A DNA stretch of 64,000 nt, taken from the NCBI RefSeq assembly GCF_000281895.1, contig NZ_CM001558.1, positions 2,236,556-2,300,555 of the forward strand, read 5' to 3'. Shown here piece after piece: positions 3,768-19,395 of this stretch. Under the pieces are notes generated by a model. The model searched no databases, was not told where the DNA came from, and was given only the letters and a program-made list of their open reading frames with translations. A program made the translations under genes and the position numbers. This DNA comes from Pseudomonas fluorescens Q2-87. GTDB taxonomy: Bacteria; Pseudomonadota; Gammaproteobacteria; Pseudomonadales; Pseudomonadaceae. Positions within the stretch are counted from its first letter, which is position 1, and each line of letters opens with the position of its first letter.

Positions 3768-5162
3768 ATGACGATGGATTTCTCACGGCGCCGGCTGCTG
3801 CAAGGGGCCGGCATGCTCGCAGCTTTTACCGCGCTGGGCAGCCAGGGCGCCCTGGCCGAGTTGATGCGCGCGCCGCGACTGATTCCCTGGCGCAACTGGT
3901 CGGGGGCACAGAGTTGCTTGCCAGCCGCTCGCCTGGCACCCAAGGATCTCGACGAACTGGTGCAAGTGGTGACGCGGGCCGAGGGGCGGATTCGTCCGGT
4001 GGGTTCCGGGCATTCCTTCAGCGCGTTGGTGCCCACTGACGGGACGTTGCTGTCGCTGAGTTTTTTCAGCGGACTACTGGACCACGACGCGGCCAGCCTG
4101 CAGGCCGAGTTCGGCGGCGGTACGCCCATGTCGCGCATGGGCCCGGCGCTCAAGGCCATCGGCCAGGCGCTGCCGAACATGGCCGACGTGGATTACCAGA
4201 CCCTGGCCGGCGCCATCGCCACCTCGACCCACGGTACCGGCAAGGCGTTCGGCTCGTATGCCTCGCAAGTGGTCGGCCTGCAGTTGGTAACGGCCAGTGG
4301 CGAGGTGCTCGATTGCGATGCCAAGCGCCACCCCGAAGTATTCCTGGCCGGTCGGGTGTCCCTCGGCGCGCTGGGCCTGGTGACCCGCGTCCGCTTGCAG
4401 AACCGTCCGGCTTATCGGCTGCGTGAGCGCCAATGGGTGGCCAAAACCGAAGAGCTGCTCGAGGACGTCGAAAGCAACACCCGTGACAATCAGCACTGGG
4501 AGATGCAGGTCGTTACCCATTCCGACTATGCGCTGTCGATAGCCCTGAACGAAACCACGGATCCGGCCACGCCGCCGATCAGCCCCGAAGAGGAGGGCGG
4601 CAACGAATTCGTCAGCTTGATCGAGAATCTCGACAAGTACGGCAGCGATTTTCCCGCCGCCCGCCGAGCACTGCTCAACAGCTTGCGGCTGCTGGCCAGT
4701 TTCGATGATCGGGTCGGTGATTCCCATGACATCTACGCCAACTCCCGCACCGTGCGCTTCAACGAGATGGAATATTCGGTGCCGGCCGAATGGGGGCCCG
4801 CGTGTCTGCGTGAGATCCTCGCGTTGATTCGCGACAAGGATCTGCGCACCTGGTTTCCCATCGAATACCGCTATGTGAAGGCCGACGATATTGCCCTGAG
4901 CATGTTTGAAGGCCGGGACAGTTGCTCGATCTCCGTGCACCAGCACTATCAGATGGATCATCACAATTTCTTCGCGGCCATCGAGCCGATCTTCTGGAAA
5001 TACCAGGGCCGTCCACATTGGGGAAAGTTGCATTCCCTCAACGCCAAGGCGCTACAGACGCTCTATCCGCGCTGGGCTGAATTTACCCAGGTGCGCCAGG
5101 CATTGGACCCTGCGGGCAAGTTCCTCAACGGGCATCTTTCATCGATTCTGGGGGTGAGCTGA
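3768..5162 (+). CDS. Tat-exported FAD-linked aldonolactone oxidase-like protein
   Basis: A 464-residue flavoprotein of the D-arabinono-1,4-lactone oxidase group. The N-terminus SRRRLLQGAG followed by a hydrophobic stretch is a twin-arginine signal. The FAD-binding (PCMH-type) domain follows with GSGHSFSALVPTDG, where the histidine is the position often linked to FAD, and STHGTG. The C-terminal ALO domain ends with GRPHWGK and a DPAGKFLN motif, both typical of the family. It probably oxidises a sugar lactone or polyol in the periplasm, passing electrons to the cytochrome c encoded 17 bases upstream (inference). I chose ATG 3768 with GGGGA before it. Its stop overlaps the next start (TGATG). 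Confidence 0.88.
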   Translation: MTMDFSRRRLLQGAGMLAAFTALGSQGALAELMRAPRLIPWRNWSGAQSCLPAARLAPKDLDELVQVVTRAEGRIRPVGSGHSFSALVPTDGTLLSLSFFSGLLDHDAASLQAEFGGGTPMSRMGPALKAIGQALPNMADVDYQTLAGAIATSTHGTGKAFGSYASQVVGLQLVTASGEVLDCDAKRHPEVFLAGRVSLGALGLVTRVRLQNRPAYRLRERQWVAKTEELLEDVESNTRDNQHWEMQVVTHSDYALSIALNETTDPATPPISPEEEGGNEFVSLIENLDKYGSDFPAARRALLNSLRLLASFDDRVGDSHDIYANSRTVRFNEMEYSVPAEWGPACLREILALIRDKDLRTWFPIEYRYVKADDIALSMFEGRDSCSISVHQHYQMDHHNFFAAIEPIFWKYQGRPHWGKLHSLNAKALQTLYPRWAEFTQVRQALDPAGKFLNGHLSSILGVS

Positions 5163-6445
5163 TGGGCTTCAATCGTCGCGGTTTCCTGAGGGGTACGCTG
5201 GGCGCGGGGGTCTTGCTTGCTGGCGCCGGCGCCTGGTTTCGGCCTGATGACCTGGGAGGGCCGTACAGCGATTATTTCCGCCAGTTGAACCGCGAACTCA
5301 AGGCCAACGGCCCCATGCGTCCGGTGATGGTGGTGGACCTGGATCGGCTGGACCACAACATCGACGTGGTGACGGCCTCGGTCCGGCGCACCGGCAAGCA
5401 ACTGCGCCTGGTGGAAAAATCGTTGCCGTCGCCCGGGCTGCTGCACTACATCGCCCAGCGGGCCGAGACCCGACGGTTGATGTCGTTCCACCAGCCGTTT
5501 CTCAATCACGATGCGGTGCAATTTCCCGAGGCCGATATCCTGTTGGGCAAGCCCTTGCCGGTGCGCTCTGCCGAGTTGTTCTATCAACGCCACAAGGGGC
5601 CGTTCGATCCGTCGCGGCAATTGCAGTGGCTGCTGGACACGCCCGAACGGCTTGAGCAATACCGGGCGCTGGCCCAGAGCCTGGGGATGCGTTTGCGAGT
5701 CAATATTGAGTTGGATGTCGGCCTGCATCGCGGTGGCGTGGCCGACGACGCGGCGCTGGACGCGATGCTCAAGCAGATCCGCGCCCATCCGGCGCAGCTG
5801 GAATTCGCCGGGTTCATGGGCTACGACCCGTTCGTGGGCATGGGCGTGCCCGAACTGCTGGCCAGTCCCGAGACGCTGCTGGCCCGGGTCATGGCGATCT
5901 ACAAAACCAGGGTGGACTTCGTCCGTTTGCGCTACCCCGATTTATGGCATCCGAGCCTGACCTTCAACACCGCCGGCAGCCCCAGCTATCGCCTGCATGA
6001 ACAGGAAAATCTCAGCACCGAAGTGTCGGTGGGCACGGCCATGCTCAAGCCCAGCCACTATGACCTGCCGTCATTGAGCGAGCACGTGCCGGCGGCCTTT
6101 ATCGCCACCCCAGTGCTGAAAAGCACCGGCGCGGTGAACATCCCGGCGCTGGATGAGCGGTCGCGGATTTTTTCCTGGTGGGATGTGAACCAACGCGCCA
6201 CGTTCTTCATCTATGGCGGCAACTGGATGGCCGACTTCGAATCACCGCGCGGCTTGAAGAGCAACGGTCTTTACGGCCGCAGCTCCAACCAGGAAATGGT
6301 CAACGGTTCCGAAGCGGTGGGGCTGGCGGTGGAGGACCAGGTGTTCCTGCGACCGACCCAGACCGAGTCGGTGCTGTTGCAATTTGGCGACCTGCTGGCG
6401 GTGCGGGGCGGCAGGATTGTCGAGAGCTGGCCGGTTTATAGCTGA
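5162..6445 (+). CDS. Tat-signal PLP-dependent DSD1/alanine racemase-fold protein
   Basis: A 427-residue protein related to the alanine racemase N-terminal/D-threonine aldolase-like (DSD1) family. It starts with a twin-arginine-like signal (NRRGFLRG plus a hydrophobic stretch), so it is probably folded with its cofactor and exported. Motifs include VVDLDRLDHNID, VEKSLPSP with Lys86 as the likely PLP lysine, and the C-terminal DSD1-like region. Members act on D-amino acids or beta-hydroxy amino acids. The start codon overlaps the stop of the lactone-oxidase-like gene, so the two are translationally coupled. A periplasmic PLP enzyme beside a flavoprotein and cytochrome is unusual; the substrate is unknown. 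Confidence 0.8.
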   Translation: MGFNRRGFLRGTLGAGVLLAGAGAWFRPDDLGGPYSDYFRQLNRELKANGPMRPVMVVDLDRLDHNIDVVTASVRRTGKQLRLVEKSLPSPGLLHYIAQRAETRRLMSFHQPFLNHDAVQFPEADILLGKPLPVRSAELFYQRHKGPFDPSRQLQWLLDTPERLEQYRALAQSLGMRLRVNIELDVGLHRGGVADDAALDAMLKQIRAHPAQLEFAGFMGYDPFVGMGVPELLASPETLLARVMAIYKTRVDFVRLRYPDLWHPSLTFNTAGSPSYRLHEQENLSTEVSVGTAMLKPSHYDLPSLSEHVPAAFIATPVLKSTGAVNIPALDERSRIFSWWDVNQRATFFIYGGNWMADFESPRGLKSNGLYGRSSNQEMVNGSEAVGLAVEDQVFLRPTQTESVLLQFGDLLAVRGGRIVESWPVYS

Positions 6446-6498
6446 TTCAGTCCTGCCAAGACAAAACCTGCGGTGAAACGAATGCCTGTGAAACATTT

Positions 6499-7455
6499 CT
6501 AGAACGCAAACGGAATACTGATCTTGGCCCACAGCATCTCGCCCTCGGTGCGGTTTTCCACGGCGAATTCCTTGGCCCAGCGGATTTCGGCGCTGGCGTA
6601 CTTGAGGAAGGTCAGGTGCAACGCCGGGCCGATGGCGAAGACCTGGCCGCGCACGCCGTCGTCCACATCCTGCCCGGCGAATTGCACGGTGCGGCCGTAC
6701 TGTTTGTCGTCGGTGGTCTGCTTGAGGTAATAGCCGTTTAGCCCCAGCCTCAGGTTGTCAGTCACGCGATAGCTGGCGGAATAGTCGAAGTGGAAAATCT
6801 GCCCAGAACGGTAGTCGGTGTCCTTGTTCTTGCGGTTGAAACTGTAGGTGGTTTTCATCGACACCTCGGTGTCTTCCGAGGGCAACCAGGTGAAGGAAAA
6901 CAGCGGCTTGTAGGTATAGAAATTATTGCTCGTGTTGGCCAATCGATCGGTGCTGTATTCGCCGGTCGGCACGGTGATTTCCACTGCTGCGGCCAGGGTC
7001 AGGTTCTTGCCCATGTCCCAGAGCACAATGGGCGAAATGGTGGTATCGCCCATGCCCTCGCGGGTGTCGTGCAGGCCGAACACCGAGACTTCCTGCTTGA
7101 TCCAGGGTTGGGCGATGTAGATCCCCGCCCGCCCGCCGGCCACCCGCAACGGGCTGAGGTAATCGATACGTGGGACCACTGCCGTGGATTCGATTTCCAC
7201 GTCCGGCAGTTCACCGCCCAACGAGCTGATATTGAATTTCCGGGCTTTGTAATGGTTGTAGTAGAGGTTGAACGCGACCATGTGGTCCGGAAGGCTGTCG
7301 ACTTCCAGCGGCAACACAAAAAAGCCATCGGTGCCGGGGCCGATGTTGTCGACCCCCGATTCGCTAGCCAATGCGGGCAGGGTACCGGCGCTGGCCAGGG
7401 CGAGGGTCAGTTGCAAGACATATCTGCTGCGGATCGGGTTCATGGAGGGGCTCAT
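6499..7455 (-). CDS. SphA/MetA-like outer-membrane transport protein
   Basis: About 318 residues with an N-terminal signal peptide ending near PALAS and many alternating amphipathic strands closing in an aromatic residue (SIPFAF), as in outer-membrane beta-barrels. It resembles the 'phenol degradation protein meta'/SphA family (PF13557), which are thought to be channels for hydrophobic or aromatic compounds. The start is uncertain: ATGs at 7455 and 7443 both lack a clear ribosome site; the second puts the signal peptide at the very N-terminus. It converges on the cassette to its left and is divergent from an AraC regulator that may control it. Confidence 0.75.
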   Translation of the reverse strand: MSPSMNPIRSRYVLQLTLALASAGTLPALASESGVDNIGPGTDGFFVLPLEVDSLPDHMVAFNLYYNHYKARKFNISSLGGELPDVEIESTAVVPRIDYLSPLRVAGGRAGIYIAQPWIKQEVSVFGLHDTREGMGDTTISPIVLWDMGKNLTLAAAVEITVPTGEYSTDRLANTSNNFYTYKPLFSFTWLPSEDTEVSMKTTYSFNRKNKDTDYRSGQIFHFDYSASYRVTDNLRLGLNGYYLKQTTDDKQYGRTVQFAGQDVDDGVRGQVFAIGPALHLTFLKYASAEIRWAKEFAVENRTEGEMLWAKISIPFAF

Positions 7456-7649
7456 TATTATTGTTGGAGAGGCACCGAAAGTCCGAGCCATACAAATAAG
7501 CCGTTCGCCGCTGCCGGGGCAGGGTAATGGCGGCCACGCAGGGGACTTGCGCGGCCAGATTTTTGTACCCCCTGATCTGCCGGGCCATGCTAACGTTGAT
7601 GAAACAACCGGTTACAAAAACGCCTCCTAACGTGCTCCGGAACCCGCCC

Positions 7650-8693
7650 ATGCCGATGAAAGTCGTCGATCCCACCTATGAACTGGCGCTGGTGTCGCCG
7701 TTTCTGCTGCAAACCCTGGCCGAGGTGGTGACGGACAAGGGCTTCGATGCCGCCAGCTTGTGTCGTGGCGTGGGGTTTGGCCTCGACGATTTGCAGGATC
7801 CTGCCCAGCGCATTTCCTACCGCCAGGCGGTGGCCATGATACAGCGGGCGCTCAGGCTGTTGCCCGATCAGGGACTGGGGTTGTGGGTCGGCGACCGTAA
7901 CGTGCTCGGCACCCTGGGCCTGCTGGGCCACGTTGTGTCGTTATGCGAGACCCTGCGCGATGCCTTCGCCTTGGGCGTGCGTTACCAGCACACCACCGGC
8001 GGCATTGCGGTGACCAGCGTCGGAGAAACCACTGACCGAATCATGGTCGAGGCGACCTGCCGCCTGCCTTTTGCCGAGATCCAGATATTTGCGGTGGAGG
8101 AGTTTTTCGCCAGCCTCATGGTTTATGGCCGCGCGCTGGCCGGGCCCGACTTCAAGCCCCAGGCCGTGGAGTTCATGCACGCCGCGCCGTCCTATGCCCA
8201 GGAATACCTGCGGATATTGGGACCGGATGTGCGTTTTGGTTGCCGGCACAACCGCATGCTGATTGACGCGCACTGGCTGGGCGTGCGCTTGCCCAATCAC
8301 CACCCGCTGGCTTTGCGCCAGGCATTGGCGTTGCTGGAGCAGGAGGCCACCGAGGTCCACCAGAAGATCGATCTGATCCAGGCCGTGGAGCGGGCGATCG
8401 CCCGGGACCTGACCCGTGGCAGCCACATCGAAAAAATCGCCGGCGATCTCAACATGAGCAGCCGCACCCTGCGCCGGCGCCTGACCGAACACAGCCTGAC
8501 CTTCGAAGCCTTGCTCGAACAAGTACGCCGCAGCCGGACCCTGAACCTGCTGGCCAATCCCGAACTGTCCATCGAGCGCATCACCGAGGAAGTCGGCTAC
8601 AGCGACGTGCGCAGTTTCCGCCGGGCATTCCGGCGCTGGACCGGAAAGAGCCCCAGCGCCTTTCGCAGCGAGGGCACTGAGGCTCAGCTCTAA
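7650..8693 (+). CDS. AraC family transcriptional regulator
   Basis: About 347 residues. The N-terminal two thirds match the arabinose-binding-like domain of the OruR/ArgR-type AraC subgroup (LLQTLAEVVTDKGFDAASLCRGVGF). The C-terminus holds two helix-turn-helix motifs, including HIEKIAGDLNMSSRTLRRRL and ITEEVGYSDVRSFRRAFRRWTGKSPSAFR. The start is not certain: 7650 (MPMKVVDP) has a weak GGAA upstream, and the open frame extends to 7527. The gene is divergent from the SphA-like porin, a typical layout for an activator of a hydrophobic-compound uptake or degradation gene (inference). Confidence 0.85.
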   Translation: MPMKVVDPTYELALVSPFLLQTLAEVVTDKGFDAASLCRGVGFGLDDLQDPAQRISYRQAVAMIQRALRLLPDQGLGLWVGDRNVLGTLGLLGHVVSLCETLRDAFALGVRYQHTTGGIAVTSVGETTDRIMVEATCRLPFAEIQIFAVEEFFASLMVYGRALAGPDFKPQAVEFMHAAPSYAQEYLRILGPDVRFGCRHNRMLIDAHWLGVRLPNHHPLALRQALALLEQEATEVHQKIDLIQAVERAIARDLTRGSHIEKIAGDLNMSSRTLRRRLTEHSLTFEALLEQVRRSRTLNLLANPELSIERITEEVGYSDVRSFRRAFRRWTGKSPSAFRSEGTEAQL

Positions 8694-8745: not shown

Positions 8746-8763
8746 GTCATAACTCGTTATGAC
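8746..8763. promoter_or_regulatory. Perfect 18-bp palindrome upstream of the GntR gene
   Basis: GTCATAACTCGTTATGAC is an inverted repeat with 8-base arms and a 2-base centre, ending 14 bases before the gntR start codon. HutC/GntR proteins often repress their own operon from such a site. It is therefore a likely operator for the whole 8.8-16.2 kb gene block. The symmetry is seen directly; the role is inferred. Confidence 0.65.
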
Positions 8764-8777
8764 AAGTGAAAGGGTCC

Positions 8778-9530
8778 ATGTCCGACAACGTTCTTTCCCT
8801 CAGCAGCGTGCCGCTGCACACCCAGCTACGCGACGTGTTGCGCTCGCGCATTCTCGACGGCCAGTACCCCCAGGGCAGCCAGATGCCCTCCGAAAGCGAG
8901 CTTGGCGCGCTGTTTCGCGTCAGCCGCATCACTGTGCGCCAGGCCCTGGGGGATCTGCAAAAAGAAGGGTTGATCTTCAAGATCCACGGCAAGGGCACGT
9001 TCGTGGCCAAGCCCAAGACCTTCCAGAACGTCAGCACGCTCCAGGGCCTGGCGGAGTCCATGACCGGCCGTGGCTTCGAGGTGATCAACCGCCTGCACAG
9101 TTTCAAGTTCATCGCTGCCGACAAGCTGGTGGCCGAGCGCTTGAAGATCACCGAAGGGGACACGGTGGCGCAGATCAAGCGGGTGCGGCTGATCAACCGA
9201 GAACCGATTTCCCTGGAGGTCACCTACCTGCCCAAGGCCCTCGGTGAGCGACTGGAAAAAGCTGACCTGGTGACCCGTGACATTTTCCTGATCCTGGAAA
9301 ACGACTGCGCCTTGACCTTGGGGCACGCGGACCTGGCCATCGATGCGGTGCTGGCCGACAGCGACCTGACCCAGGCGCTGGAGGTCGAAGCCGGTTCGCC
9401 CATCATGCGCATCGAGCGCTTGACCCATGATGCCGACGGCCAGCCGTTGGACTTCGAACACCTCTATTACCGCGGCGATGCCTTCCAGTACCGCTTGCGG
9501 ATCGACCGACAAAAGGGGACGCAGGCATGA
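8778..9530 (+). CDS. GntR family (HutC subfamily) transcriptional regulator
   Basis: A 250-residue regulator. Residues 10-75 form the GntR winged helix (PSESELGALFRVSRITVRQALGDLQKEGLI) with the wing HGKGTFVAKP. A UTRA ligand-binding domain follows (residues about 90-240), ending FEHLYYRGDAFQYRLRI, as in HutC-type proteins. The ATG at 8778 has AAAGGG upstream. Its stop overlaps the start of the AprA-like gene (ATGA), so it is the first gene of that operon and probably senses its substrate. The palindrome just upstream suggests autoregulation. Confidence 0.92.
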   Translation: MSDNVLSLSSVPLHTQLRDVLRSRILDGQYPQGSQMPSESELGALFRVSRITVRQALGDLQKEGLIFKIHGKGTFVAKPKTFQNVSTLQGLAESMTGRGFEVINRLHSFKFIAADKLVAERLKITEGDTVAQIKRVRLINREPISLEVTYLPKALGERLEKADLVTRDIFLILENDCALTLGHADLAIDAVLADSDLTQALEVEAGSPIMRIERLTHDADGQPLDFEHLYYRGDAFQYRLRIDRQKGTQA

Positions 9531-11272
9531 CCCACAGCTCCACGACTCGAAGTACCCTCGAACAGGAATACGACATTGTGGTCATCGGTGGCGGCACCGC
9601 CGGGCCCATGGCGGCAATCAAGGCCAAGGAGCGCAACCGCGACTTGCGCGTGCTGCTGGTGGACAAGGCCAACGTCAAGCGCAGCGGCGCAATCAGCATG
9701 GGCATGGACGGCTTGAACAACGCGATCATCCCCGGCCATTCCACGCCCGAGCAGTACACCAAGGAAATCACTATCGCCAATGACGGCATCGTCAACCAGG
9801 CGGCGGTGTACGCCTATGCGACCCATAGCTTCGAGACGATCGAGCAGTTGGACCGGTGGGGCGTGAAGTTCGAGAAGGACGAAACCGGCGACTACGCGGT
9901 GAAGAAAGTTCACCACATGGGCGCCTACGTGCTGCCGATGCCGGAAGGGCATGACATCAAGAAAGTCCTGTACCGCCAGTTGAAGCGGGCACGGGTGAGC
10001 ATCACCAATCGACTGGTCTGCACCCGCTTGCTGACCGACGACGAAGGCGCAGTGAACGGCGTGATGGGCTTCGATTGCCGCACCGCCGACTTTCATGTGA
10101 TCAAGGCCAAGGCTGTCATCCTCTGCTGCGGCGCGGCGGGGCGCCTGGGCTTGCCGGCCTCTGGCTACCTGATGGGCACTTACGAAAACCCGACCAACGC
10201 CGGCGACGGCTATGCCATGGCCTACCACGCTGGTGCCGAACTGGCGAACCTGGAGTGCTTCCAGATCAATCCGTTGATCAAGGATTACAACGGCCCGGCA
10301 TGCGCCTATGTCACCGGACCACTGGGCGGCTATACCGCCAACAACAAGGGCGAACGCTTCATCGAGTGCGACTACTGGAGCGGCCAGATGATGTGGGAGT
10401 TCCATCAGGAACTCGAAGGCGGCAATGGTCCGGTCTTTCTCAAGCTCGATCACCTGGCCGAAGAAACCATCCAGAACATCGAAGAGATCCTGCACAGCAA
10501 CGAGCGGCCCAGTCGCGGCCAATTCCACGCCAACCGTGGCACCGACTACCGCACGCAAATGGTGGAAATGCACATCTCCGAAATCGGTTTTTGCAGCGGT
10601 CATTCGGCATCGGGCGTGTGGGTCAACGAGCGGGCCGAGACATCGGTCAAGGGGCTTTACTCGGCCGGCGACATGGCAGCGGTACCGCACAACTACATGC
10701 TCGGGGCGTTCACCTACGGCTGGTTCGCCGGCAACAATGCCGCGGACTTCGTGGCCGGGAAAGATTTTTCAACGCTGGATGCCGGGCAGATCGAACGGGA
10801 AAAGGCCCGGGTCTATGCGCCGTTGGACCGCGAGCACGGCCTGCCGCCAGCCCAGGTGGAATACAAGCTGCGGCGCTTCGTCAACGATTACCTGCAACCG
10901 CCGAAGGTCACCAAGAAAATGCAGATCGGCCTGCAACGCTTCAGCGATATCCAGCGCGACCTGGACCAGATCAAGGCCCACAACGCTCACGAATTGATGC
11001 GCGCCATGGAGGTCAGCATGATTCGCGATTGCGCCGAAATGGCCGCGCGGGCCTCGCTGTTCCGCGCTGAAAGCCGTTGGGGCCTGTACCACTATCGGGT
11101 CGATCACCCACAACGCAACGACAGCGACTGGTTCTGCCATTGCCACCTGAAGAAGGGCGACGACGGCGTGATGACCTCGTTCAAGAAAGCTGTCGAGCCC
11201 TACATCATCGCCCTCGATGCCGACGAACTGCAGGCCTACGACCGGCTGCGGGTCGGTGCCGACGCGGCGTGA
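9527..11272 (+). CDS. AprA-like fumarate reductase/adenylylsulfate reductase-type flavoprotein
   Basis: A 581-residue FAD protein of the fumarate reductase/succinate dehydrogenase/adenylylsulfate reductase superfamily. The FAD motif GGGTAG is at residues 21-26, KRSGAISMGMDGLNNAI resembles the AprA flavin region, and CSGHSASGVWVNERAETSVKGLYSAGDMAAVPHNY forms the conserved C-terminal FAD block. The adjacent gene is a 2x[4Fe-4S] ferredoxin, the AprB arrangement. True AprAB reduces adenylyl sulfate, but there is no sat, qmo or dsr gene here and pseudomonads do not normally respire sulfate. The next genes form a sulfonate/nitrate-type importer, so an oxidation or reduction of an imported sulfur or nitrogen compound is more likely (inference). 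Confidence 0.85.
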   Translation: MTHSSTTRSTLEQEYDIVVIGGGTAGPMAAIKAKERNRDLRVLLVDKANVKRSGAISMGMDGLNNAIIPGHSTPEQYTKEITIANDGIVNQAAVYAYATHSFETIEQLDRWGVKFEKDETGDYAVKKVHHMGAYVLPMPEGHDIKKVLYRQLKRARVSITNRLVCTRLLTDDEGAVNGVMGFDCRTADFHVIKAKAVILCCGAAGRLGLPASGYLMGTYENPTNAGDGYAMAYHAGAELANLECFQINPLIKDYNGPACAYVTGPLGGYTANNKGERFIECDYWSGQMMWEFHQELEGGNGPVFLKLDHLAEETIQNIEEILHSNERPSRGQFHANRGTDYRTQMVEMHISEIGFCSGHSASGVWVNERAETSVKGLYSAGDMAAVPHNYMLGAFTYGWFAGNNAADFVAGKDFSTLDAGQIEREKARVYAPLDREHGLPPAQVEYKLRRFVNDYLQPPKVTKKMQIGLQRFSDIQRDLDQIKAHNAHELMRAMEVSMIRDCAEMAARASLFRAESRWGLYHYRVDHPQRNDSDWFCHCHLKKGDDGVMTSFKKAVEPYIIALDADELQAYDRLRVGADAA

Positions 11273-11296
11273 GCCTTCCACCCAGAGAGACCGCCC

Positions 11297-11542
11297 ATGG
11301 CCTATCAACCCCAGGAAATTTTTTTCCGCTCCAATGCCCCCGTCACCGTGGACGAGGACAAATGCATCGCCCACAAAGGCTGCACCGTCTGCGTTGACGT
11401 CTGCCCCATGGACCTGCTGGCGATCAACCCGGCCACCCAGAAGGCCTACATGGCGTTCGATGAATGCTGGTATTGCATGCCCTGTGAAAAGGACTGCCCG
11501 ACCGGGGCGGTAAAAGTCGAGATTCCGTACCTGTTGCGCTGA
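11297..11542 (+). CDS. AprB-like 2x[4Fe-4S] ferredoxin
   Basis: An 81-residue ferredoxin. Cysteines 23, 29, 32 and 36 (KCIAHKGCTVCVDVCP) and 57, 60, 63 and 67 (ECWYCMPCEKDCP) give two [4Fe-4S] sites. The tryptophan-rich second motif recalls the ferredoxin-like N-terminal part of AprB, but the long AprB C-terminal tail is absent. It starts 24 bases after the flavoprotein gene and probably forms its electron-transfer subunit in the cytoplasm. GAGA-rich sequence before the ATG is a modest ribosome site. Confidence 0.88.
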   Translation: MAYQPQEIFFRSNAPVTVDEDKCIAHKGCTVCVDVCPMDLLAINPATQKAYMAFDECWYCMPCEKDCPTGAVKVEIPYLLR

Positions 11543-11554
11543 CCGCGACACCGC

Positions 11555-11648
11555 ATTCGCGAGCAAGCCCGCTCCCACAAGGGATCGAAGCCAGTCGCAA
11601 ATCTTATGTACACCGATAAACCTGTGGGAGCCGGGCTTGCCCGCGAAT
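11555..11648. repeat. REPIN, family 1
   Basis: Two inverted family-1 REP cores, the second slightly degenerate (GTGGGAGCCGGGCTTGCCCG). They lie between the ferredoxin gene and the binding-protein gene, inside what otherwise looks like one transcription unit. It could moderate transcript level between the enzyme and transporter genes. Confidence 0.8.
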
Positions 11649-11780
11649 GCGGCCAGTCCTGACACCCAAAAAGCCATCCGGCCGCACCCGGACGCTCTAT
11701 TCAGAACACCCCTCGTTTCCCACCGTGCCCTGATCACGGCGGAGACGAATATCCAATAAATGATTCGAGGGGACACACCC

Positions 11781-13187
11781 ATGTTATTGCGTGCAGCACT
11801 GGCCGGTCTGGTACTGGCTTCATTGACCCTGCCTGCCCAGGCAGAAACCATCCGTATCGCCATCGGCACCCAGGACACCACCATCAACTGCGCCGCCGGC
11901 GGGTTGTTGATCCGTGAGCTGGGCCTGTTGGACAAATATTTGCCCCACGACGGCGCCTACAAGGACGTCCAGTACGACGTCCAATGGAAGAACTTCACCA
12001 GCGGTGCGCCGCTGACCAACGAGATGGTCGCCGGCAAACTCGACTTTGGCGCCATGGCCGATTTCCCCGGGGCGTTCAACGGCGTGGCGTTTGAAACCGC
12101 CGGCAAGCACAGCCTGTTCATCAGCGTGCTGTCGGGCAGCACCCAGGGCAGCGGCAACGGCATCGTAGTGCCCAGTGCGTCGGGCGTGCAGTCGCTGGCC
12201 GAGCTCAAGGGCAAGACCATTTCCGTGCCGTTTGCGTCCACCGCCCACGGCATGTTGTTGCGCGCCGTCGCGGCCCAGGGCTGGGACCCGCTCAAGGACG
12301 TGAACATCATTGCCCAGCCGCCGGAGGTGGCCGGCTCGGCGTTGCAGGCGGGCAAGATCGATGCCCACGCCGACTTCGTGCCGTTCGCCGAACTGTTCCC
12401 CAGCCGGGGCTTCGCCCGCAAGATCTACGACGGTGCCCAGGCCAGCACGCCGACGTTCCATGGCGCGCTGGTGGACCAGGCCTATGCGAAAAAGTACCCG
12501 GAGATCGTCGTGGCGTACCTGCGCGCGTCTATCGAGGCCAATCAATTGCTGGCCGCCGAACCTGAGAAGTACAGCGAGCTGATCGCCAAGGTCACCGGAG
12601 TGGATGCCGAGGTCAATTACCTGTTCCACGGACCGCTGGGCGTGCAGACCCGAGACCTGACCTGGAAGCCGGAATATCGCCAAGCCGTCGGCACCGCCAT
12701 CGACACCCTCAAGCTGCTGAAAAAGGCTGATCGTGGCCTGGATCTCAACACCTTCATCGATGACCAGTACATCCGCGCCGCCTTCAAGGCGTCGAACCTG
12801 GATTACGCGGCGCAACTGGGCAACTACGCCCAGACGCCCCTCAACACGGCCGACGCCCTGACTGGCAAAGCCATCAGCGATTTCAGCCGTGTGGCCGAGA
12901 TCTGGGTGCGCGGTGAACCGAAGGTGCGCCATTACGCCTCGGCCCAATCAGCCTTCGCCGCGCTGGCCAGCCTCAAGCAGGAAGGCAAGGGCATCCGCGC
13001 TGTCTATGCCCAGGCCAGCGACAGCGGGATCAAGCTGTTGGCCGAACAAGCGTGGTTCGCCAGTGATGCCAAGGGCCAGCTCAGCGCGTTCCTGCTCAAG
13101 GGCCAGGCCCAGCAGTTTGCTAGCGCCCAGGGCGGCAAGGTCTTGGACTTTACCGAGGCCACCACCCAGGCGGTCGCCGCCCGCTGA
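11781..13187 (+). CDS. ABC transporter substrate-binding protein (sulfonate/nitrate/taurine type)
   Basis: A 468-residue periplasmic binding protein with a clear Sec signal peptide (MLLRAALAGLVLAS, cleavage near AQA-ET). The mature part has the SsuA/TauA/NrtA-like pattern: IRIAIGTQDTTINCAAGGLLIRE, then KLDFGAMADFPGAFNGVAF and LAELKGKTISVPFASTAHGMLLR. It is longer than SsuA (about 320 residues), closer to the NMT1/THI5- and NrtA-like group with an extra C-terminal lobe. The ATG at 11781 has GAGGGG eight bases upstream. It is followed, after a REPIN, by the permease and ATPase. The ligand cannot be read from sequence; co-location with the AprAB-like pair suggests that enzyme's substrate. Confidence 0.88.
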   Translation: MLLRAALAGLVLASLTLPAQAETIRIAIGTQDTTINCAAGGLLIRELGLLDKYLPHDGAYKDVQYDVQWKNFTSGAPLTNEMVAGKLDFGAMADFPGAFNGVAFETAGKHSLFISVLSGSTQGSGNGIVVPSASGVQSLAELKGKTISVPFASTAHGMLLRAVAAQGWDPLKDVNIIAQPPEVAGSALQAGKIDAHADFVPFAELFPSRGFARKIYDGAQASTPTFHGALVDQAYAKKYPEIVVAYLRASIEANQLLAAEPEKYSELIAKVTGVDAEVNYLFHGPLGVQTRDLTWKPEYRQAVGTAIDTLKLLKKADRGLDLNTFIDDQYIRAAFKASNLDYAAQLGNYAQTPLNTADALTGKAISDFSRVAEIWVRGEPKVRHYASAQSAFAALASLKQEGKGIRAVYAQASDSGIKLLAEQAWFASDAKGQLSAFLLKGQAQQFASAQGGKVLDFTEATTQAVAAR

Positions 13188-13201
13188 CTTGCAAATAACC
13201 T

Positions 13202-13289
13202 GTGGGAGCGGGCTTGCTCGCGAAGGCGTCAGCACATTCGACATCTTTGCAGGCTGACCCACCGCTTTCGCGAGCAAGCCCGCTCCCAC
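13202..13289. repeat. REPIN, family 1
   Basis: Two inverted copies of the family-1 core separated by about 40 bases, placed between the binding-protein and permease genes of the ABC transporter. An RNA hairpin here could uncouple the high-level binding protein from the membrane components, as REP elements do in other periplasmic transporter operons (inference). Confidence 0.88.
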
Positions 13290-13316
13290 AGGGACTCCAC
13301 ACCAGAGGATAAATCA

Positions 13317-14099
13317 GTGTTCTCAACATCCAAACGCTGGCTCCTGCGAGCCGCTTCATTGCTGCTTTGCCTGCTGTTCTGGCAGCTCGCCGCCAACGGC
13401 CACTGGGACCTCGGCCTGGTGACCTTCGCCAACGTACCGACGCCGCTGGCGGTGATCCAGGCTGCGCTCGGCCTGGGGGAGTCCGGCAATCTCGCTCGGC
13501 ACTTGGGCAGCAGTCTGGGGCGAGTGTTTGCCGGCTATGGCGCGGCGCTGGTACTTGGCGTGGCGCTGGGCGTCGCCATTGGTCGTTCGAAATGGGCCGA
13601 AGATTTGCTGTTGCCGCCGTTGGAAGTCCTGCGACCGATCCCAGCAGTGGCCTGGATTCCCCTGGCGATCCTGATGTTTCCCTCCTCGGAACTGTCGATG
13701 GTGTTCATCACCTTTACCGGGGCGTTGTTTCCGATCCTGCTCAATACCGTGCACGGCGTCGAAGGCGTGGACCGACGGCTGATCGCCTCGGCGAAAAGCC
13801 TCGGTGCCGGACGCCGGGCGATCCTGCTGGAAGTGATCCTGCCGGGTGCCGCGCCGAGCATCATTACCGGCCTGGCCATCGGCATGGGCACGTCGTGGTT
13901 CTGTCTGGTGACGGCAGAAATGATCGCCGGCCAATACGGCATCGGCTACTACACCTGGGCGTCCTACACCGTACAGAACTACCCCGACATCGTCGTCGGC
14001 ATGCTGCTGATCGGCGTGCTGGGCATGGGCAGCAGTTTGTTGATCAAACGCCTGGGCGGGCTGGCCACGCCTTGGCATCGACCGCGAGGAAAAGCCTGA
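13317..14099 (+). CDS. ABC transporter permease (SsuC/TauC type)
   Basis: A 260-residue inner-membrane permease with about six transmembrane segments. The EAA loop that contacts the ATPase is visible as AKSLGAGRRAILLEVILPGAAPSIITG. RPIPAVAWIPLAILMF is the conserved segment of nitrate/sulfonate/taurine permeases. I use a GTG start at 13317 because AGAGGA lies seven bases upstream. The stop overlaps the ATPase start by one base. It works with the flanking binding protein and ATPase as one importer. Confidence 0.9.
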   Translation: MFSTSKRWLLRAASLLLCLLFWQLAANGHWDLGLVTFANVPTPLAVIQAALGLGESGNLARHLGSSLGRVFAGYGAALVLGVALGVAIGRSKWAEDLLLPPLEVLRPIPAVAWIPLAILMFPSSELSMVFITFTGALFPILLNTVHGVEGVDRRLIASAKSLGAGRRAILLEVILPGAAPSIITGLAIGMGTSWFCLVTAEMIAGQYGIGYYTWASYTVQNYPDIVVGMLLIGVLGMGSSLLIKRLGGLATPWHRPRGKA

Positions 14100-14947
14100 T
14101 GAGTGCAATGCAAACGTCGGAGGGGCGGATCGATATCCGTCAGTTGTCCATTGTTCTCGGCCAAGGTACCCAAGCCTTCGAAGCCGTCCAGGGCCTCGAT
14201 TGCCAGATCGAGGCGGGCCAGTTCGTCTGCGTCCTGGGGCCGTCCGGCTGCGGGAAGTCCACGTTGCTCGGCGCCCTGGCCGGGCATCTGCAACCGCGCA
14301 CCGGCGCCCTGAATGTCGACGGCCTGCCAGTGTCCGGACCTTCGCCCCAGCGGGGCATGGTGTTCCAGCAACACACGTTGTTTCCCTGGCGTAGCGTGCG
14401 CGACAACGTCGCCTTCGGCCTGAAGATGCGTGGCCTGGGCAAGGCCGAGCGGCACCGGGCCGCCGATGAAATCCTTGCCCTGGTGGGCCTTGAAGGGTTT
14501 GCCGGGCACTGGCCGGATCAGCTCTCGGGGGGCATGCAGCAACGGGTGGAAATCGCCCGGGTGTTGGTCAATCGGCCACGGCTGTTGTTGATGGATGAAC
14601 CCTTCGGCGCGCTGGATGCGTTGACCCGGTTGAACATGCAGGAACTGCTGCTGGATATCTGGACGCGCATCCGCACCACCGTGGTGTTCGTGACCCACGA
14701 TATCGATGAGGCGCTGTTCCTGGCCGATCGCTTGCTGGTGATGAGCCCGCGCCCCGGACGAATCATCGAGGACCTGCGCCTGGATTTCCCCCGACCACGC
14801 ACGACCGAGCTGGTCACCCGCCCTGAATTCGCCCGTTTGAAGCGCCACTGCCTCGAGCTGCTGCGCCATGAAGAAGGCCGGCAACTGCCGCGCCTCAATC
14901 CTCTCGGGCTTCCCTCTGAAACCTCCTTGCCGCGATTTGCCCTATGA
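14099..14947 (+). CDS. ABC transporter ATP-binding protein (SsuB/TauB type)
   Basis: A 282-residue ATPase. Walker A is GPSGCGKST (residues 48-56), the Q-loop region reads MVFQQHTLFPW, the signature is LSGGMQQR, Walker B is LLLMDEPFGALD, and the switch histidine lies in VFVTHDIDEAL. These match the nitrate/sulfonate/bicarbonate/taurine import ATPases. The start is fixed by the TGATG overlap with the permease stop. Its own stop overlaps the ATG of the HEAT-repeat gene, so translation appears coupled through five genes. Confidence 0.92.
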   Translation: MSAMQTSEGRIDIRQLSIVLGQGTQAFEAVQGLDCQIEAGQFVCVLGPSGCGKSTLLGALAGHLQPRTGALNVDGLPVSGPSPQRGMVFQQHTLFPWRSVRDNVAFGLKMRGLGKAERHRAADEILALVGLEGFAGHWPDQLSGGMQQRVEIARVLVNRPRLLLMDEPFGALDALTRLNMQELLLDIWTRIRTTVVFVTHDIDEALFLADRLLVMSPRPGRIIEDLRLDFPRPRTTELVTRPEFARLKRHCLELLRHEEGRQLPRLNPLGLPSETSLPRFAL

Positions 14948-15906
14948 CCTCTCTATTCGAAGACACCGACAACGACGACATCCTCACCCTGCAACCGCGT
15001 CTCACCGACGAGGACCCGGGCGTGCGCCGCATCGCCCTGATCGAACTGGCCGACCTTGAAGAGCCCGAAGGCCTGCTGTGGTTGGTCGATCGCCTGGCCC
15101 AGGACCCCAGCGCCGAAGTGCGGGCCGAAGCCGCGCGATTATTGGAAGCCTGGGAAGACGCCCCGGTGGTCGCGGCGCTGTGCCAGGCCCTGACCGATCC
15201 GTGCGCGACCGTGCAGGCCGCCGCCGCCCAGAGCCTGAGCCTGCTCAAGAGCGAAGCGGCGGGGAGGGTGATCCTGCCTTGGGCCGTCCATGGGGATGTC
15301 AGTGTGCGCGTCGCGGCGTTCAGGGCTTTGCGCGAGTTGCGTCTGGCCGACGCCGCGCCGGCAGCCATCGCCGCCCTGGCCGATGGCGATGCCAGCGTAC
15401 GCCGCGAAGCGGTCGGCGTACTGGGCTGGCTCAAGCACCTCGACGCCTTGCCGGCCCTGGCCCGGCTTGCCAGTGACGACCCGGACAGCGACGTGCGCCG
15501 CGCCGCCACCGGCGCCCTCGGCCTGGCCTCGGATGCGCAAGTCTTGCCGGCCCTGCGCCAGGCGTTGCAGGACCCGGCCTGGGCGGTGCGCGAAGAAGCC
15601 GCCACGACCTTGGGCAAGGTCGGCCACGCCGATGCCGGCCCGGCGCTGATCGACGCGCTGGGCGACGATTATTGGCAAGTGCGCCTGCGTGCCACCCGCA
15701 GCCTCGGCCGCTTGCGCTACGCCCCGGCGTTGCCGGCCCTGATCGAAACCCTGGACCATCGCATCAGCAACTTGCGCAAAGAAGCGGCCCTGGCCTTGGG
15801 CGAGTTGGCTGATCCCAACGCGATCCCGGCCTTGCAGGCAGCCCAGGACGACGGCGATCCCGAAGTGCGCAAAGCCGTGCGCATTGCCTTGGGCCAACTG
15901 CAATGA
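14944..15906 (+). CDS. HEAT-repeat protein
   Basis: A 320-residue protein made almost wholly of about ten tandem helical HEAT/PBS-lyase-type repeats of roughly 31 residues. Each carries a pattern like DPDSDVRRAATGALG or DPEVRKAVRIALG. There is no signal peptide, so it is cytoplasmic. Such solenoids act as scaffolds or chaperones; relatives help attach chromophores or cofactors. Being locked between the transporter ATPase and a DUF971 gene by start/stop overlaps on both sides suggests a dedicated partner, perhaps for assembling or docking the AprAB-like flavo-iron-sulfur enzyme (inference). Confidence 0.88.
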   Translation: MTSLFEDTDNDDILTLQPRLTDEDPGVRRIALIELADLEEPEGLLWLVDRLAQDPSAEVRAEAARLLEAWEDAPVVAALCQALTDPCATVQAAAAQSLSLLKSEAAGRVILPWAVHGDVSVRVAAFRALRELRLADAAPAAIAALADGDASVRREAVGVLGWLKHLDALPALARLASDDPDSDVRRAATGALGLASDAQVLPALRQALQDPAWAVREEAATTLGKVGHADAGPALIDALGDDYWQVRLRATRSLGRLRYAPALPALIETLDHRISNLRKEAALALGELADPNAIPALQAAQDDGDPEVRKAVRIALGQLQ

Positions 15907-16181
15907 ATCCCCTGGCGATTGGCAATTCCAAGGGCAAAGGGCAATTGAAGCTCGACTGGCCCGACGGCCGCGAACAACACCTGGACCACGCGGCACTGCG
16001 CCGCCACTGCCCATGCTCACAATGCCGGGCGTTTCGCCTGAAAGGGCTGACGGTCCAGGTCGACCCACGGATCCGAGTGGTTGAGGTCAATGCCCAGGGA
16101 TATGGAGTGCAATTGGTCTTCAGTGACGGGCACGAGCGCGGGATTTATCCATGGGCGTACCTGGCGGAGCTTGAAAACTGA
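15903..16181 (+). CDS. DUF971 (gamma-butyrobetaine hydroxylase-like N-terminal domain) protein
   Basis: A 92-residue stand-alone DUF971 domain. It has the metal-binding cluster HCPCSQCR (Cys36, Cys38, Cys41 and His35) and the conserved LKLDWPDG and GIYPWAYL segments. In other proteins this domain precedes gamma-butyrobetaine hydroxylase or occurs with the Fe-S carrier ApbC/Mrp. Here it is the last gene of the operon, overlapping the HEAT-repeat stop. An auxiliary role in Fe-S or metal handling for the AprAB-like pair is possible but not shown. Confidence 0.88.
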   Translation: MNPLAIGNSKGKGQLKLDWPDGREQHLDHAALRRHCPCSQCRAFRLKGLTVQVDPRIRVVEVNAQGYGVQLVFSDGHERGIYPWAYLAELEN

Positions 16182-16708
16182 CACACCGTTATCGCGAGCA
16201 AGCTCGCTCTCATAATTGAATCGGGGTACGGCCGGAGAGACAGGCCGGCTATAAGGCCGCCTCGCCGGCTTTTGACCTGGGGGCCCCGTTGACCACGCTG
16301 GCCGAACGCAGGCATTGCGCAGTGGGCATCCCGGCATGGATGCCGGGATAGCCGCGCTGGGTCATGGATGACCCTTCGCGGCGGGCCCACGGAGCAATGC
16401 CGGAGAGAGGGCACACCGAGCCTAGGCGAGGTGCCTAGTGGTGGGGCAAGCCTTTTTTGCTTACTTTTTTTGGCGTCTGAAAAAAAGTGAGTCGCCGTAA
16501 GGGCGAAACCCTAAGTTGCCGTTACCGCAAAAATGGATATGTACTCAGTCCTAAATAACCTAGCCAGATGCCAGCCCTCCATGGCGAGCAAGCGAACACG
16601 TGAATTTGTGAGCACAGGAAGAAATGTGGAAGCGAGCTTGCTCGCGATGGCGGCAATCCAGGCGACCTGTCGAACTGACTGGCGGCGCTTGTCAGAGAAA
16701 CCCCGAAA
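16182..16708. other. Non-coding gap with several palindromes and degenerate REP halves
   Basis: No convincing gene. It holds two degenerate family-1 REP halves (about 16190-16213 and 16625-16650). A perfect 10-base inverted repeat lies at 16328-16349 (ATCCCGGCAT, GG, ATGCCGGGAT). A near-perfect 12-base hairpin follows at 16460-16491 (CTTACTTTTTTT, 8-base loop, AAAAAAAGTGAG). From memory, sequence like the 16430-16550 stretch recurs between genes in other fluorescent pseudomonads, but I cannot check that here. Confidence 0.5.
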
Positions 16709-16724
16709 GAGTACAAATGTACTC
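16709..16724. promoter_or_regulatory. LexA2-type SOS box
   Basis: GAGTACAAATGTACTC is a perfect palindrome matching the AGTAC-N4-GTnCT operator described for the second LexA of Pseudomonas and Xanthomonas. It covers the proposed lexA2 start codon (ATG at 16717) and ends one base before the alternative ATG at 16726. Repressor binding here would shut off the lexA2-imuA-imuB-dnaE2 operon until DNA damage. Confidence 0.85.
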
Positions 16725-17334
16725 CATGACGACTCTCACCCCCCGCCGCACCGCCATCCTGACCTTCATCCGCGAACGCATCGCCGAGCAGGGCCAGTCT
16801 CCCAGCCTCGCTGAAATCAGCGAGGCGTTCGGTTTCGCCTCCCGTAGCGTGGCGCGCAAACACGTGCTGGCACTCACCGAAGCCGGTTTCATCGAGGTCA
16901 ACCCGCACCAGGCCCGGGGTATCCGCTTGCTGAACCAACCGCCGCGTCCCGAGCTCCTGGACGTGCCGGTGCTGGGGCGAGTGGCCGCCGGACGGCCGAT
17001 CAGCGCCGATGCCGAGGTCCACAGCCGCCTGATGCTGGACCCGGCGATGTTCACCAGGGCGCCGGATTACCTGTTGCGCGTGCAAGGCGACTCGATGATC
17101 GAAGATGGCATTCTCGACGGGGACCTGGTGGGCGTGCAGCGCACACCGCAAGCCTCCAACGGCCAGATTGTCGTGGCGCGCCTGGACGGCGAAGTCACCA
17201 TCAAGCGCTTCGAACGCATCGGCGAGCGGGTGCGTCTGCTGCCGCGCAACCCGGCCTACCAGCCGATCATCGTCGAAGCCGACCAGGACCTGGCCATTGA
17301 AGGCGTGTTCTGTGGCTTGTTGAGGCAAGGCTGA
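16717..17334 (+). CDS. lexA2: SOS repressor LexA2
   Basis: A 205-residue LexA homologue. The N-terminal winged helix is RRTAILTFIRERIAEQG...SLAEISEAFGFASRSVARKHVLALTEAGFI. The self-cleavage site Ala91-Gly92 lies in GRVAAGRP; the catalytic pair is Ser126 (GDSMIEDG) and Lys163 (VTIKRFE). The position as first gene before imuA-imuB-dnaE2 identifies it as the LexA2 paralogue that controls the mutagenesis cassette. The start at 16717 has GAAAGAG upstream; ATG 16726 is an alternative without a ribosome site. The operator overlaps the start, so autoregulation is very likely. The stop overlaps imuA. Confidence 0.92.
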   Translation: MYSMTTLTPRRTAILTFIRERIAEQGQSPSLAEISEAFGFASRSVARKHVLALTEAGFIEVNPHQARGIRLLNQPPRPELLDVPVLGRVAAGRPISADAEVHSRLMLDPAMFTRAPDYLLRVQGDSMIEDGILDGDLVGVQRTPQASNGQIVVARLDGEVTIKRFERIGERVRLLPRNPAYQPIIVEADQDLAIEGVFCGLLRQG

Positions 17335-17966
17335 TGGGCGCTGTCGTTGCATTGGACACGCTGTTCAACGGCGGTCAGGTCTGGAAGGGCCGGCCTGCGC
17401 CGCCGGCCGCCAGCCCGCAACCCACCGGTCATGCTGCACTGGACGCGGCGCTGCCCAGCGGCGGCTGGCCGGAAGCGGCCTTGACGGAGTTGCTCATCGC
17501 CGCGCCGGGCGTGGGCGAGTTGCAATTGGTATGGCCTACCCTGGCGCGACTGTCGGCAGCAGGGGAGCGGATCGTGCTGGTGGCACCGCCGTTCGTGCCC
17601 TATCCCCAGGCCTGGCAGAGCGCCGGCATCGATTTGCGTCAGTTGTCAGTGATCCGCGCCGATGAGCGCGATGCCCTGTGGGCCACCGAGCAATGCTTGC
17701 GTTCGGGCAGTTGCGGCGCGGTGCTGTGCTGGCCCCGTCAGGCGGATGACCGGGCCATGCGGCGGCTGCAAGTGGCGGCTGAAACCGGCCAGACCCTGGC
17801 GTTCGCCTGGCGCTCGATCCAGGAGGCCATCAACCCGTCGCCGGCGGCCCTGCGCATTGCCATCGATACGCGACCGGCGCAATTGCGCGTGCTCAAGTGC
17901 CGGGGCGGACTGGCCCGTTCGGCGCCGATTGCCTTTGCCTCGCTCATCACACAGACAGGGCACTGA
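17334..17966 (+). CDS. imuA: ImuA, translesion mutagenesis accessory protein
   Basis: A 210-residue RecA/SulA-like protein (called SulA2 in some Pseudomonas annotations). The N-terminus has PTGHAALDAALPSGGWPEAALTELL, the family signature, and the middle keeps a RecA-like beta-alpha layout (ERIVLVAPPFVPYPQAW) without a full Walker A. ImuA links ImuB and DnaE2 to damaged DNA and RecA. The start overlaps the lexA2 stop, and imuB begins seven bases after its end, so it is co-induced in the SOS response. Confidence 0.9.
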   Translation: MGAVVALDTLFNGGQVWKGRPAPPAASPQPTGHAALDAALPSGGWPEAALTELLIAAPGVGELQLVWPTLARLSAAGERIVLVAPPFVPYPQAWQSAGIDLRQLSVIRADERDALWATEQCLRSGSCGAVLCWPRQADDRAMRRLQVAAETGQTLAFAWRSIQEAINPSPAALRIAIDTRPAQLRVLKCRGGLARSAPIAFASLITQTGH

Positions 17967-17973
17967 GGTTGCG

Positions 17974-19395
17974 ATGCGCTGGGTCTGTATTCTCTTCCCG
18001 CAATTGGCGCTGGACGCCGCGCTGCGCCAGCGCCCCGATCCAGACGAACCCCTGGCGCTGCTGACCGGCCCGGCCCAGCGTCGGGTACTGCAAGCGGTGA
18101 ATGCGCAGGCAAGGGCCCTGGGCTTGCGTCCCGGCCAGACCATGACGGCTGCCCAGGCCCTGAGCAAGGGGTTCGCCACGGCCGAATACGACGCGACGCA
18201 GATCGAGCACTGGCAACAGTTCCTGGCGGCCTGGGCCTACCGTTTCAGCTCCCAGGTCAGCGTGCATTATCCGCGCACGGTGCTGTTCGAGATCGAGTCG
18301 AGCCTGGGCCTGTTCGGGCCCTGGCCGGTGTTCGAAGCGCGGTTGCGGGCCGAGCTGACTGAACTGGGATTTCGGCACCGCATCGTCGCCGCACCGAACC
18401 CGGTGGCGGCGCGGGTGTTGGCCAATGCCTATGACGCCTTGGTGGTGCCCGACAGCGAGGCCTTGCAGGCGTGCCTGGGACAGATGCCGGTGGACCGCAT
18501 CGGCCTGGAACCCGACGCCGCCCTGGCTTTGTCGCGCATGGGCCTGCGCCGCCTGGACCAGGTCCAGGCCTTGCCCCGAAACACCTTGGCACGACGCTTC
18601 GAAGCCCAGGTACTCAAGCACCTCGATGCGCTGGTGGGCAGCCGCACCCTGGCGCTGTCGTTCTATTTACCGCCGGACCGTTTCGATGTGCGCATCGAAC
18701 TCAACTACGACGTCCAGTCCCACCAGGCGCTGCTGTTCCCGTTGCGGCGATTGACCGGTGACCTGGCGGCCTTTCTATGCGGCCGCGACAGCGGCGTGCA
18801 GCGTTTTGACTTGCATCTGGAGCACGCCGGCTTGCCGGATACGCTGATCAAGGTCGGCCTGCTCAGCGCCGAGCGGGATCCTTCGATGCTCTTCGAACTG
18901 GCCCGGGGCCGATTGGAGCAAGTCCAGGTCGAAGCCCCTGTGCGCGGCTTTCGCTTGTGTGCCGAAGACCTGCCGAGTTTCGTGCCCCAGCGCCTGGAAC
19001 TGTTCGACGAACGTCCCCAACAATCCTTGCCCTGGGAACAACTGCGCGAACGGTTGCGGGCCCGGCTGGGGGACGAAGCGGTGCAGGGGCTGGGGTTTCG
19101 TGACGATCATCGGCCTGAATGCGCTTGGCAAATGATCCCTCAGCTTCGCCCCCAAGTCTGTCCGGTGCGCGAGGGCGTACAGCGTCCCGGCTGGCTGCTC
19201 GACGAACCCCAGGCATTGCCGCCAGGCCAGGCGCATATCTTCATGGGCCCGGAGCGCATCGAGACCGGCTGGTGGGATGGCGCCGATGTGCGTCGCGATT
19301 ATTACCTGATCGAAACCCGCACTGGGCAACGTGGCTGGGCCTATCGCACGGTGGGCGAAGACGGGCCGCTGTGGCTGCAAGGGTGGTTCGCATGA
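17974..19395 (+). CDS. imuB: ImuB, Y-family polymerase-like protein
   Basis: A 473-residue Y-family DNA polymerase homologue starting [20 protein letters not shown]. The acidic catalytic residues of true Y-family polymerases (for example the DVDCFF motif of DinB) are not present at the N-terminus, as is usual for ImuB, which serves as an adaptor to the beta clamp and DnaE2. The little-finger region and the C-terminal ImuB domain (ending [20 protein letters not shown]) are intact. GAGG precedes the ATG, and the stop overlaps the dnaE2 start. Confidence 0.92.

Follow-up and report, generated by a model that had tools for sequence, protein, structure and literature searches.

In Pseudomonas fluorescens Q2-87, a window of 64,000 nucleotides (contig NZ_CM001558.1) contains an operon of eight genes that, with its putative operator, occupies positions 8746 to 16181 (window numbering throughout). 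The operon encodes a GntR/UTRA-type regulator, an AprA-like flavoprotein, an AprB-like ferredoxin, the binding protein, permease and ATPase of an ATP-binding cassette (ABC) importer, a HEAT-repeat protein and a DUF971 protein. We propose that these genes form one operon under its own control, which imports a sulfonate-like anion and releases sulfite from it reductively. The order and conservation of the genes, the clade, its signature residues, the operator motif and one gene fusion are observed directly. We infer the substrate class, direction, chemistry, regulation and helper roles from the comparisons set out below, and give the proposal as a whole an even chance of being right.

The flavoprotein (9527 to 11272, plus strand, 581 amino acids) belongs to NCBIfam NF006131 (1137.9 bits, cut-off 587), a family whose database name is fumarate reductase/succinate dehydrogenase flavoprotein subunit. 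In a maximum-likelihood tree of 32 proteins, with AprA entered as two pieces, the family forms one clade that is sister, with support of 100, to AprA together with the 3'-phosphoadenosine 5'-phosphosulfate (PAPS) reductase of Methanothermococcus thermolithotrophicus (MtPAPSR, PDB 8a8o). AsfA and SdhA/NadB are placed apart from it; the separate branch of AsfA leads us to reject that identity for the window protein. A placement of the flavoprotein with some known enzyme from a different pathway, which the first-pass annotation had named as a refuting result, is not seen. Identity to the window protein is 34.4% for the AprA pieces, 28.3% for MtPAPSR, 25.2% for a relative in Ilyobacter, 24.8% for SdhA, 24.6% for NadB and 22.6% for AsfA of CH34. 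Among solved structures MtPAPSR ranks first and AprA next, and the low-confidence AlphaFold model (mean pLDDT, the predicted local distance difference test, of 61.4, from a shallow alignment) gives fold matches concordant with the sequence result. A true AprA in the host can be rejected, as the window protein alone scores and its 119.8 bits fall well short of the aprA cut-off, 641.75.

Signature residues were compared across 112 flavoprotein loci (111 with the window included, plus one from Sinorhizobium americanum), a sample that is uneven and mainly from Pseudomonas and Burkholderiales. In 112 of 112 relatives Leu250 occupies the position of the arginine of AprA and the PAPS reductases (AprA Arg265), which we take to be catalytic and to hold sulfite, and Tyr219 occupies that of AprA Trp234; Tyr219-Glu220 aligns with the Trp-Tyr of both enzymes. 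Asn248 and Leu250 align with the His and Thr of the SdhA HPT motif, presumably active-site residues, and identity as a fumarate reductase or succinate dehydrogenase is rejected. We chose 27 positions in conserved columns, and 23 of them do not vary among the 112 relatives, including Tyr219-Glu220, Asn248-Pro249-Leu250, Trp284, Cys356 and His359. Since the positions of AprA Arg265 and Trp234 are replaced throughout, the flavoprotein is probably not an adenosine 5'-phosphosulfate (APS) reductase, and the earlier description of a shortened Apr-type enzyme understates the difference. The simplest reading of the aligned residues would be a single conserved reaction, unlike APS reduction. Three cysteines (Cys244, Cys259 and Cys356) are invariant in the alignments, Cys356 in 112/112 and replaced by valine in PAPS reductases; a redox or sulfur-accepting role for them is possible. 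Passages of PMC10322725 describe Trp206/Tyr207 of MtPAPSR as binding flavin adenine dinucleotide (FAD).

The ferredoxin (11297 to 11542, plus strand; Fer4_7, 1.7e-9) matches AprB chains and has the cysteine spacing of a 2x[4Fe-4S] protein, with two four-cysteine motifs. A tryptophan that follows the first cysteine of the second motif, at the AprB Trp position, is present in 111/111 loci. At 81 amino acids the window protein is short, compared with 150-166 for solved AprB chains. Genes for a ferredoxin-NADP reductase (FNR) are present in 10/112 loci, in six of them (L132, L134-L138) directly 5' of the flavoprotein gene, and FdxA genes in 6/112. The presence of FNR and FdxA genes in some clusters indirectly favours reduction driven by reduced nicotinamide adenine dinucleotide phosphate (NADPH) as the likelier direction. 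The first-pass suggestion, uptake of an unusual sulfur or nitrogen compound that is then oxidised or reduced, stands as to a sulfonate-type importer and is narrowed as to direction.

The association of these genes is conserved well beyond the window. Within 9 kb of the flavoprotein gene and at a threshold of 40 bits, the ferredoxin is encoded in 111/111 loci, the HEAT protein in 107, DUF971 in 91, the GntR protein in 94, the ABC ATPase in 94, the binding protein in 93 and the permease in 86, with the proviso that the GntR and importer counts may include paralogues. The four loci with no separate HEAT gene are two with early contig ends (L027 and L031) and two from Actinobacteria. The recurrence of the gene set across the fetched loci is more than chance, and the predicted conservation of HEAT and DUF971 with the flavoprotein holds. 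Counts of other neighbours over the 112 loci carry no chance control, and the sample includes related genomes more than once. Among the recurrent neighbours many were antisense frames, and only clusters nameable by Pfam or NCBIfam were retained. The linkage of an AprA-like flavoprotein and an AprB-like ferredoxin to a sulfonate-type importer, as first annotated, is borne out.

At a threshold of 65% identity, the flavoprotein has a copy in 9 of 25 congeneric genomes, counting the host, and in 10/38 relatives overall, and an even draw from the phylum gives 21/398 genomes (host included) and 10/212 genera at E <= 1e-100. A pattern scan with one genome per species found at least 574 stretches that encode flavoprotein relatives, of which the best 80 confirmed relatives were kept. 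The closest named loci among the matches listed are from Pseudomonas, with flavoproteins 97-98% identical. Plasmid records with the flavoprotein come from rhizobia, Acidithiobacillus, Methylocystis, cyanobacteria and Actinobacteria, the best 48 matches having 58 to 82% identity. On Acidithiobacillus caldus plasmid pTcM1 (L012, 10102-14035) FdxA comes after the gene set, together with a 1153-residue protein with a Pyr_redox_2 match alone, which occurs in that locus only among the 112.

The periplasmic substrate-binding protein (11760 to 13187, plus strand, 475 amino acids) is SsuA/TauA-like, although its SsuA_fam score of 127.6 bits is below the cut-off of 163.5. Among solved structures it is about equally near SsuA, TauA and one protein named nitrate transport protein. 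The permease (13317 to 14099; BPD_transp_1, 4.8e-24) and the 282-residue ATPase (14099 to 14947; ABC_tran, 5.7e-32) follow on the same plus strand. Four residues of the binding protein, Gln38, Asn133, Ser160 and His234, are invariant in 83/83 relatives. Compared with the contacts to sulfonate and amine that passages of PMC6906117 give for TauA, the sulfonate-site pair Ser131-Thr132 is kept, as Ser160 (83/83) and Thr161 (69/83, alanine in the other 14), and the amine ligands Glu106 and Asp205 are replaced by Asn133 and His234, each in 83/83. Gln38 may correspond to the TauA sulfonate ligand Gln30, but lies outside the region covered by the local alignment with TauA. Because the Ser-Thr pair is kept and the amine ligands are replaced, the imported compound is probably not taurine but another oxyanion. 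Neighbours of a sulfur type occur in some loci: NtaA/DmoA-type flavin mononucleotide (FMN) monooxygenases in 7/112, YeiH-type exporters in 7, SfnB-type proteins in 3 and TauE/SafE in 1. On plasmid C of Sinorhizobium americanum, an asfA-like/asfB-like pair is followed by DUF971, flavoprotein, ferredoxin, HEAT and importer genes and two FMN monooxygenases, an adjacency seen in 1/112 loci.

The HEAT-repeat protein (14944 to 15906, plus strand, 320 amino acids; HEAT_2, 2.5e-53) and the DUF971 protein (15903 to 16181, plus strand, 92 amino acids, with a CPCSQC motif; Pfam, 9.6e-22) had both been taken for dedicated helpers in cofactor assembly, a view that is plausible for DUF971 and less likely for HEAT. 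In Tsukamurella a single protein of 893 amino acids carries both flavoprotein and HEAT parts. The flavoprotein frame of Nonomuraea exceeds 640 amino acids, so a HEAT fusion is likely there too. NCBIfam NF010374 covers both parts, and the window protein matches its HEAT half. Given the natural fusion, HEAT looks like a lasting partner that stays on the flavoprotein more than an assembly factor. Its model is a confident solenoid (pLDDT 95.1) whose nearest folds are mainly designed or natural binding scaffolds. The CxCxxC motif is present in 86 of 90 DUF971 matches (L011 from Mesorhizobium, L024 from Rhizobium and L131 are among the four that lack it), and Mrp/NBP35 genes occur in three loci, those of Nostoc, Pseudanabaena and one further genome, the last scoring above the ApbC cut-off and clustered with DUF971. 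The motif and these genes make a role for DUF971 as a helper in Fe-S loading plausible by analogy. Passages of PMC7980591 describe CxCxxC in the DUF971 domain of HCF101, its C-terminal domain, and call the function of the domain elusive. In the window DUF971 is instead a stand-alone protein.

The regulator gene (8778 to 9530, plus strand, with an alternative GTG start at 8766; UTRA, 1.6e-37; GntR, 1.6e-18) is preceded by a perfect palindrome, GTCATAACTCGTTATGAC, at 8746-8763, and coordinate 8746 is its first base and not a gene start. The putative operator, ACTCGTTATGACAAGT (8752 to 8767, no strand assigned), lies largely inside this palindrome and is marked out by recurrence of the motif. The 16-bp pattern ACTYGTYATRACAAGT, chosen after viewing these related loci and scanned with up to two mismatches, is present within 310 bp 5' of gntR in 79/93 loci and directly 5' of the flavoprotein gene in 7 more, giving 86/93 at either place and 7/93 at neither; one further site occurs elsewhere in the 1.93 Mb scanned. 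The host genome, a single contig of 6.37 Mb, has a single site at one mismatch or fewer, and the reversed control pattern gave one match, on one strand. We read the GntR/UTRA protein as regulating its own operon only, presumably by binding this operator.

In the scheme we propose, the GntR/UTRA protein would repress the operon at one operator until the substrate or a derivative releases repression. The TauA/SsuA-like importer would bring in a sulfonate-like organosulfur anion. Electrons would pass from NADPH through FNR and a ferredoxin to the AprB-like ferredoxin and on to the FAD of the AprA-like flavoprotein, whose reduced flavin would attack the oxidised sulfur in the way suggested for the reductases of APS and PAPS, with release of sulfite. 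For MtPAPSR, attack by flavin N5 on sulfur is proposed in passages of PMC10322725. Sulfite would then be assimilated, or exported where YeiH/TauE genes occur. The HEAT protein may act as a scaffold held on the flavoprotein, and DUF971 (or Mrp/NBP35) may help to load the [4Fe-4S] clusters.

Several observations weigh against this scheme. The arginine presumed to hold sulfite in AprA is Leu in 112/112 relatives, and therefore the chemistry may differ. One of the three solved matches to the binding protein is a nitrate transport protein by name. Importer genes are non-adjacent in some loci, among them L062 of P. putida, L083 of Burkholderia and L084 of Ralstonia, and the Pseudanabaena YeiH falls just under its family cut-off (218.6 against 232.6). 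The window's own cluster contains no FNR, FdxA, YeiH or monooxygenase gene.

Two other explanations have to be weighed, both of which we consider unlikely and to about the same degree. The flavoprotein and ferredoxin could serve to pass electrons to a desulfonating monooxygenase whose gene lies elsewhere, with no action of their own on the sulfur compound. The layout resembles that of asf, which has a reductase, a ferredoxin and a transporter (PMC4267179; Azospirillum), and the review literature assigns such an electron-transfer role to AsfA/AsfB. FMN monooxygenases are near in 7/112 loci, as counted above, and two SsuD-type proteins above cut-off are encoded elsewhere in the host. However, no monooxygenase is present in the window cluster or, with the NtaA/DmoA query, in 105/112 loci; the clade is AprA-like, not AsfA-like; and the invariance of 23 of the 27 conserved-column positions, together with a signature at the aligned active site, exceeds the needs of an electron carrier. 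The substrate could instead be free of sulfur, the operon importing and reducing something unrelated, such as a nitrogen compound, in the manner of those members of the fumarate reductase superfamily that reduce double bonds. NMT1-type binding proteins carry many cargoes, and one solved match is by name a nitrate transport protein; amidase-type genes occur in 4/112 loci, GNAT and HAD genes in some, and Crp/Fnr-type regulators in 14/112, one of which, when scanned, scores best to NtcA, below the cut-off. Against this explanation stand the Asn and Leu at the SdhA His and Thr positions, the sister group of sulfur reductases, and the neighbouring sulfur-oxyanion exporters, SfnB and NtaA/DmoA proteins and asfAB-type pair.

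That the enzyme is an assimilatory reductase for APS or PAPS, like that of Methanothermococcus, is very improbable: MtPAPSR is the nearest characterised relative and shares the two-subunit layout, but the Arg and Trp positions are changed in 112/112 and kept in both the Ilyobacter and Methanothermococcus proteins, the importer is of the sulfonate type, the host has two PAPS_reduct-domain proteins that we read as CysD and CysH, and scans with Ilyobacter protein queries found CysC- and CysD-type proteins in 0/112 loci and one weak CysN-type match (L077, 57.7 bits). The host PAPS_reduct proteins and the near-absence of CysC/D/N-type neighbours make a role in sulfate assimilation unlikely. An SsuD query in the same scan gave two matches, which do not enter the argument. 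As to the first-pass remark that sat, dsr and qmo genes are absent, CysC-, CysD- and CysN-type proteins have no match in the 64-kb window, in a search that did not extend to Sat of the single-chain kind, Dsr or Qmo.

If reductive release of sulfite is correct, the operon might represent a third branch of FAD-type sulfur reductases, by which aerobic bacteria take in an organosulfur anion and remove its sulfite by reduction, with no need for oxygen, using a flavin/[4Fe-4S] enzyme that has its own HEAT scaffold and Fe-S loader; this wider claim we advance tentatively, at somewhat less than even confidence. Such an oxygen-free route would contrast with the oxygenase-based desulfonation (SsuD, TauD) usual in aerobes. 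It would mean that annotation as fumarate reductase/succinate dehydrogenase has concealed a way to organic sulfur that is common among bacteria. AsfA/AsfB serve as a marker of aromatic desulfonation, and their role could then be looked at afresh alongside it. No earlier description of this gene set was found in open-licence literature.

Known systems each share part of this arrangement. MtPAPSR, the best sequence match, and the Ilyobacter relative, which lies beside cysC/cysD, share with the window pair an FAD subunit from the fumarate reductase family and a ferredoxin subunit with eight cysteines. The window operon differs in its 28.3% identity to MtPAPSR, in Leu for Arg and in Tyr-Glu for Trp-Tyr; it has no APS-making genes nearby and carries the importer, HEAT and DUF971. 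AprAB belongs to the sister group, and the AprB ferredoxin tryptophan is kept; the flavoprotein score far below the aprA cut-off and the short ferredoxin set the window pair apart. SDH/FRD (succinate dehydrogenase/fumarate reductase) enzymes differ in that the window operon has an eight-cysteine ferredoxin, no [2Fe-2S]-type subunit and no membrane anchor gene. The asf cluster for aromatic sulfonates likewise has adjoining flavoprotein and ferredoxin genes with SsuA-type importer genes, and passages of PMC4267179 describe a reductase/ferredoxin pair, a transporter and a LysR regulator; the window operon differs in its 22.6% identity to AsfA, its separate branch, GntR in place of LysR, and the additional HEAT and DUF971. 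The paper's wording and the layout lead us to identify the CH34 pair, located near 929 kb, as AsfA/AsfB, the record carrying no annotation there; asfA primer sequences, a possible confirmation, were looked for without result. On the conjugative plasmid pILYOP02 of Ilyobacter polytropus (L025, 6378-11709), cysC, an AprA-like protein with a ferredoxin, cysD and a CysN-like GTPase form a set that is apparently an FAD-type PAPS reductase outside methanogens.

The open reading frames confirm the eight genes at the positions first annotated, all on the plus strand, as one block. Start/stop overlaps, read directly from the sequence, join gntR/flavoprotein, permease/ATPase, ATPase/HEAT and HEAT/DUF971. 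Pfam and NCBIfam are concordant in the domain assignments; DUF971 is now GBBH-like_N in Pfam. Copies of an inverted repeat of the GCGAGCAAGCCCGCTCCCACA type, which we take to resemble the repetitive extragenic palindromic (REP) elements of Pseudomonas, lie between ferredoxin and binding protein (11549-11660), between binding protein and permease (13199-13292) and 3' of DUF971 (16184-16217 and 16622-16653), and could split expression of the operon. Upstream, at 5162-8693, are genes for an Ala_racemase_N protein, for an outer-membrane-like protein on the reverse strand, and for an AraC-type regulator whose QhpR score is under the cut-off. Adjoining the operon at 16624-22469 are frames that resemble, as named by eye, a lexA-type repressor, imuA, imuB and dnaE2, a mutagenesis cassette.

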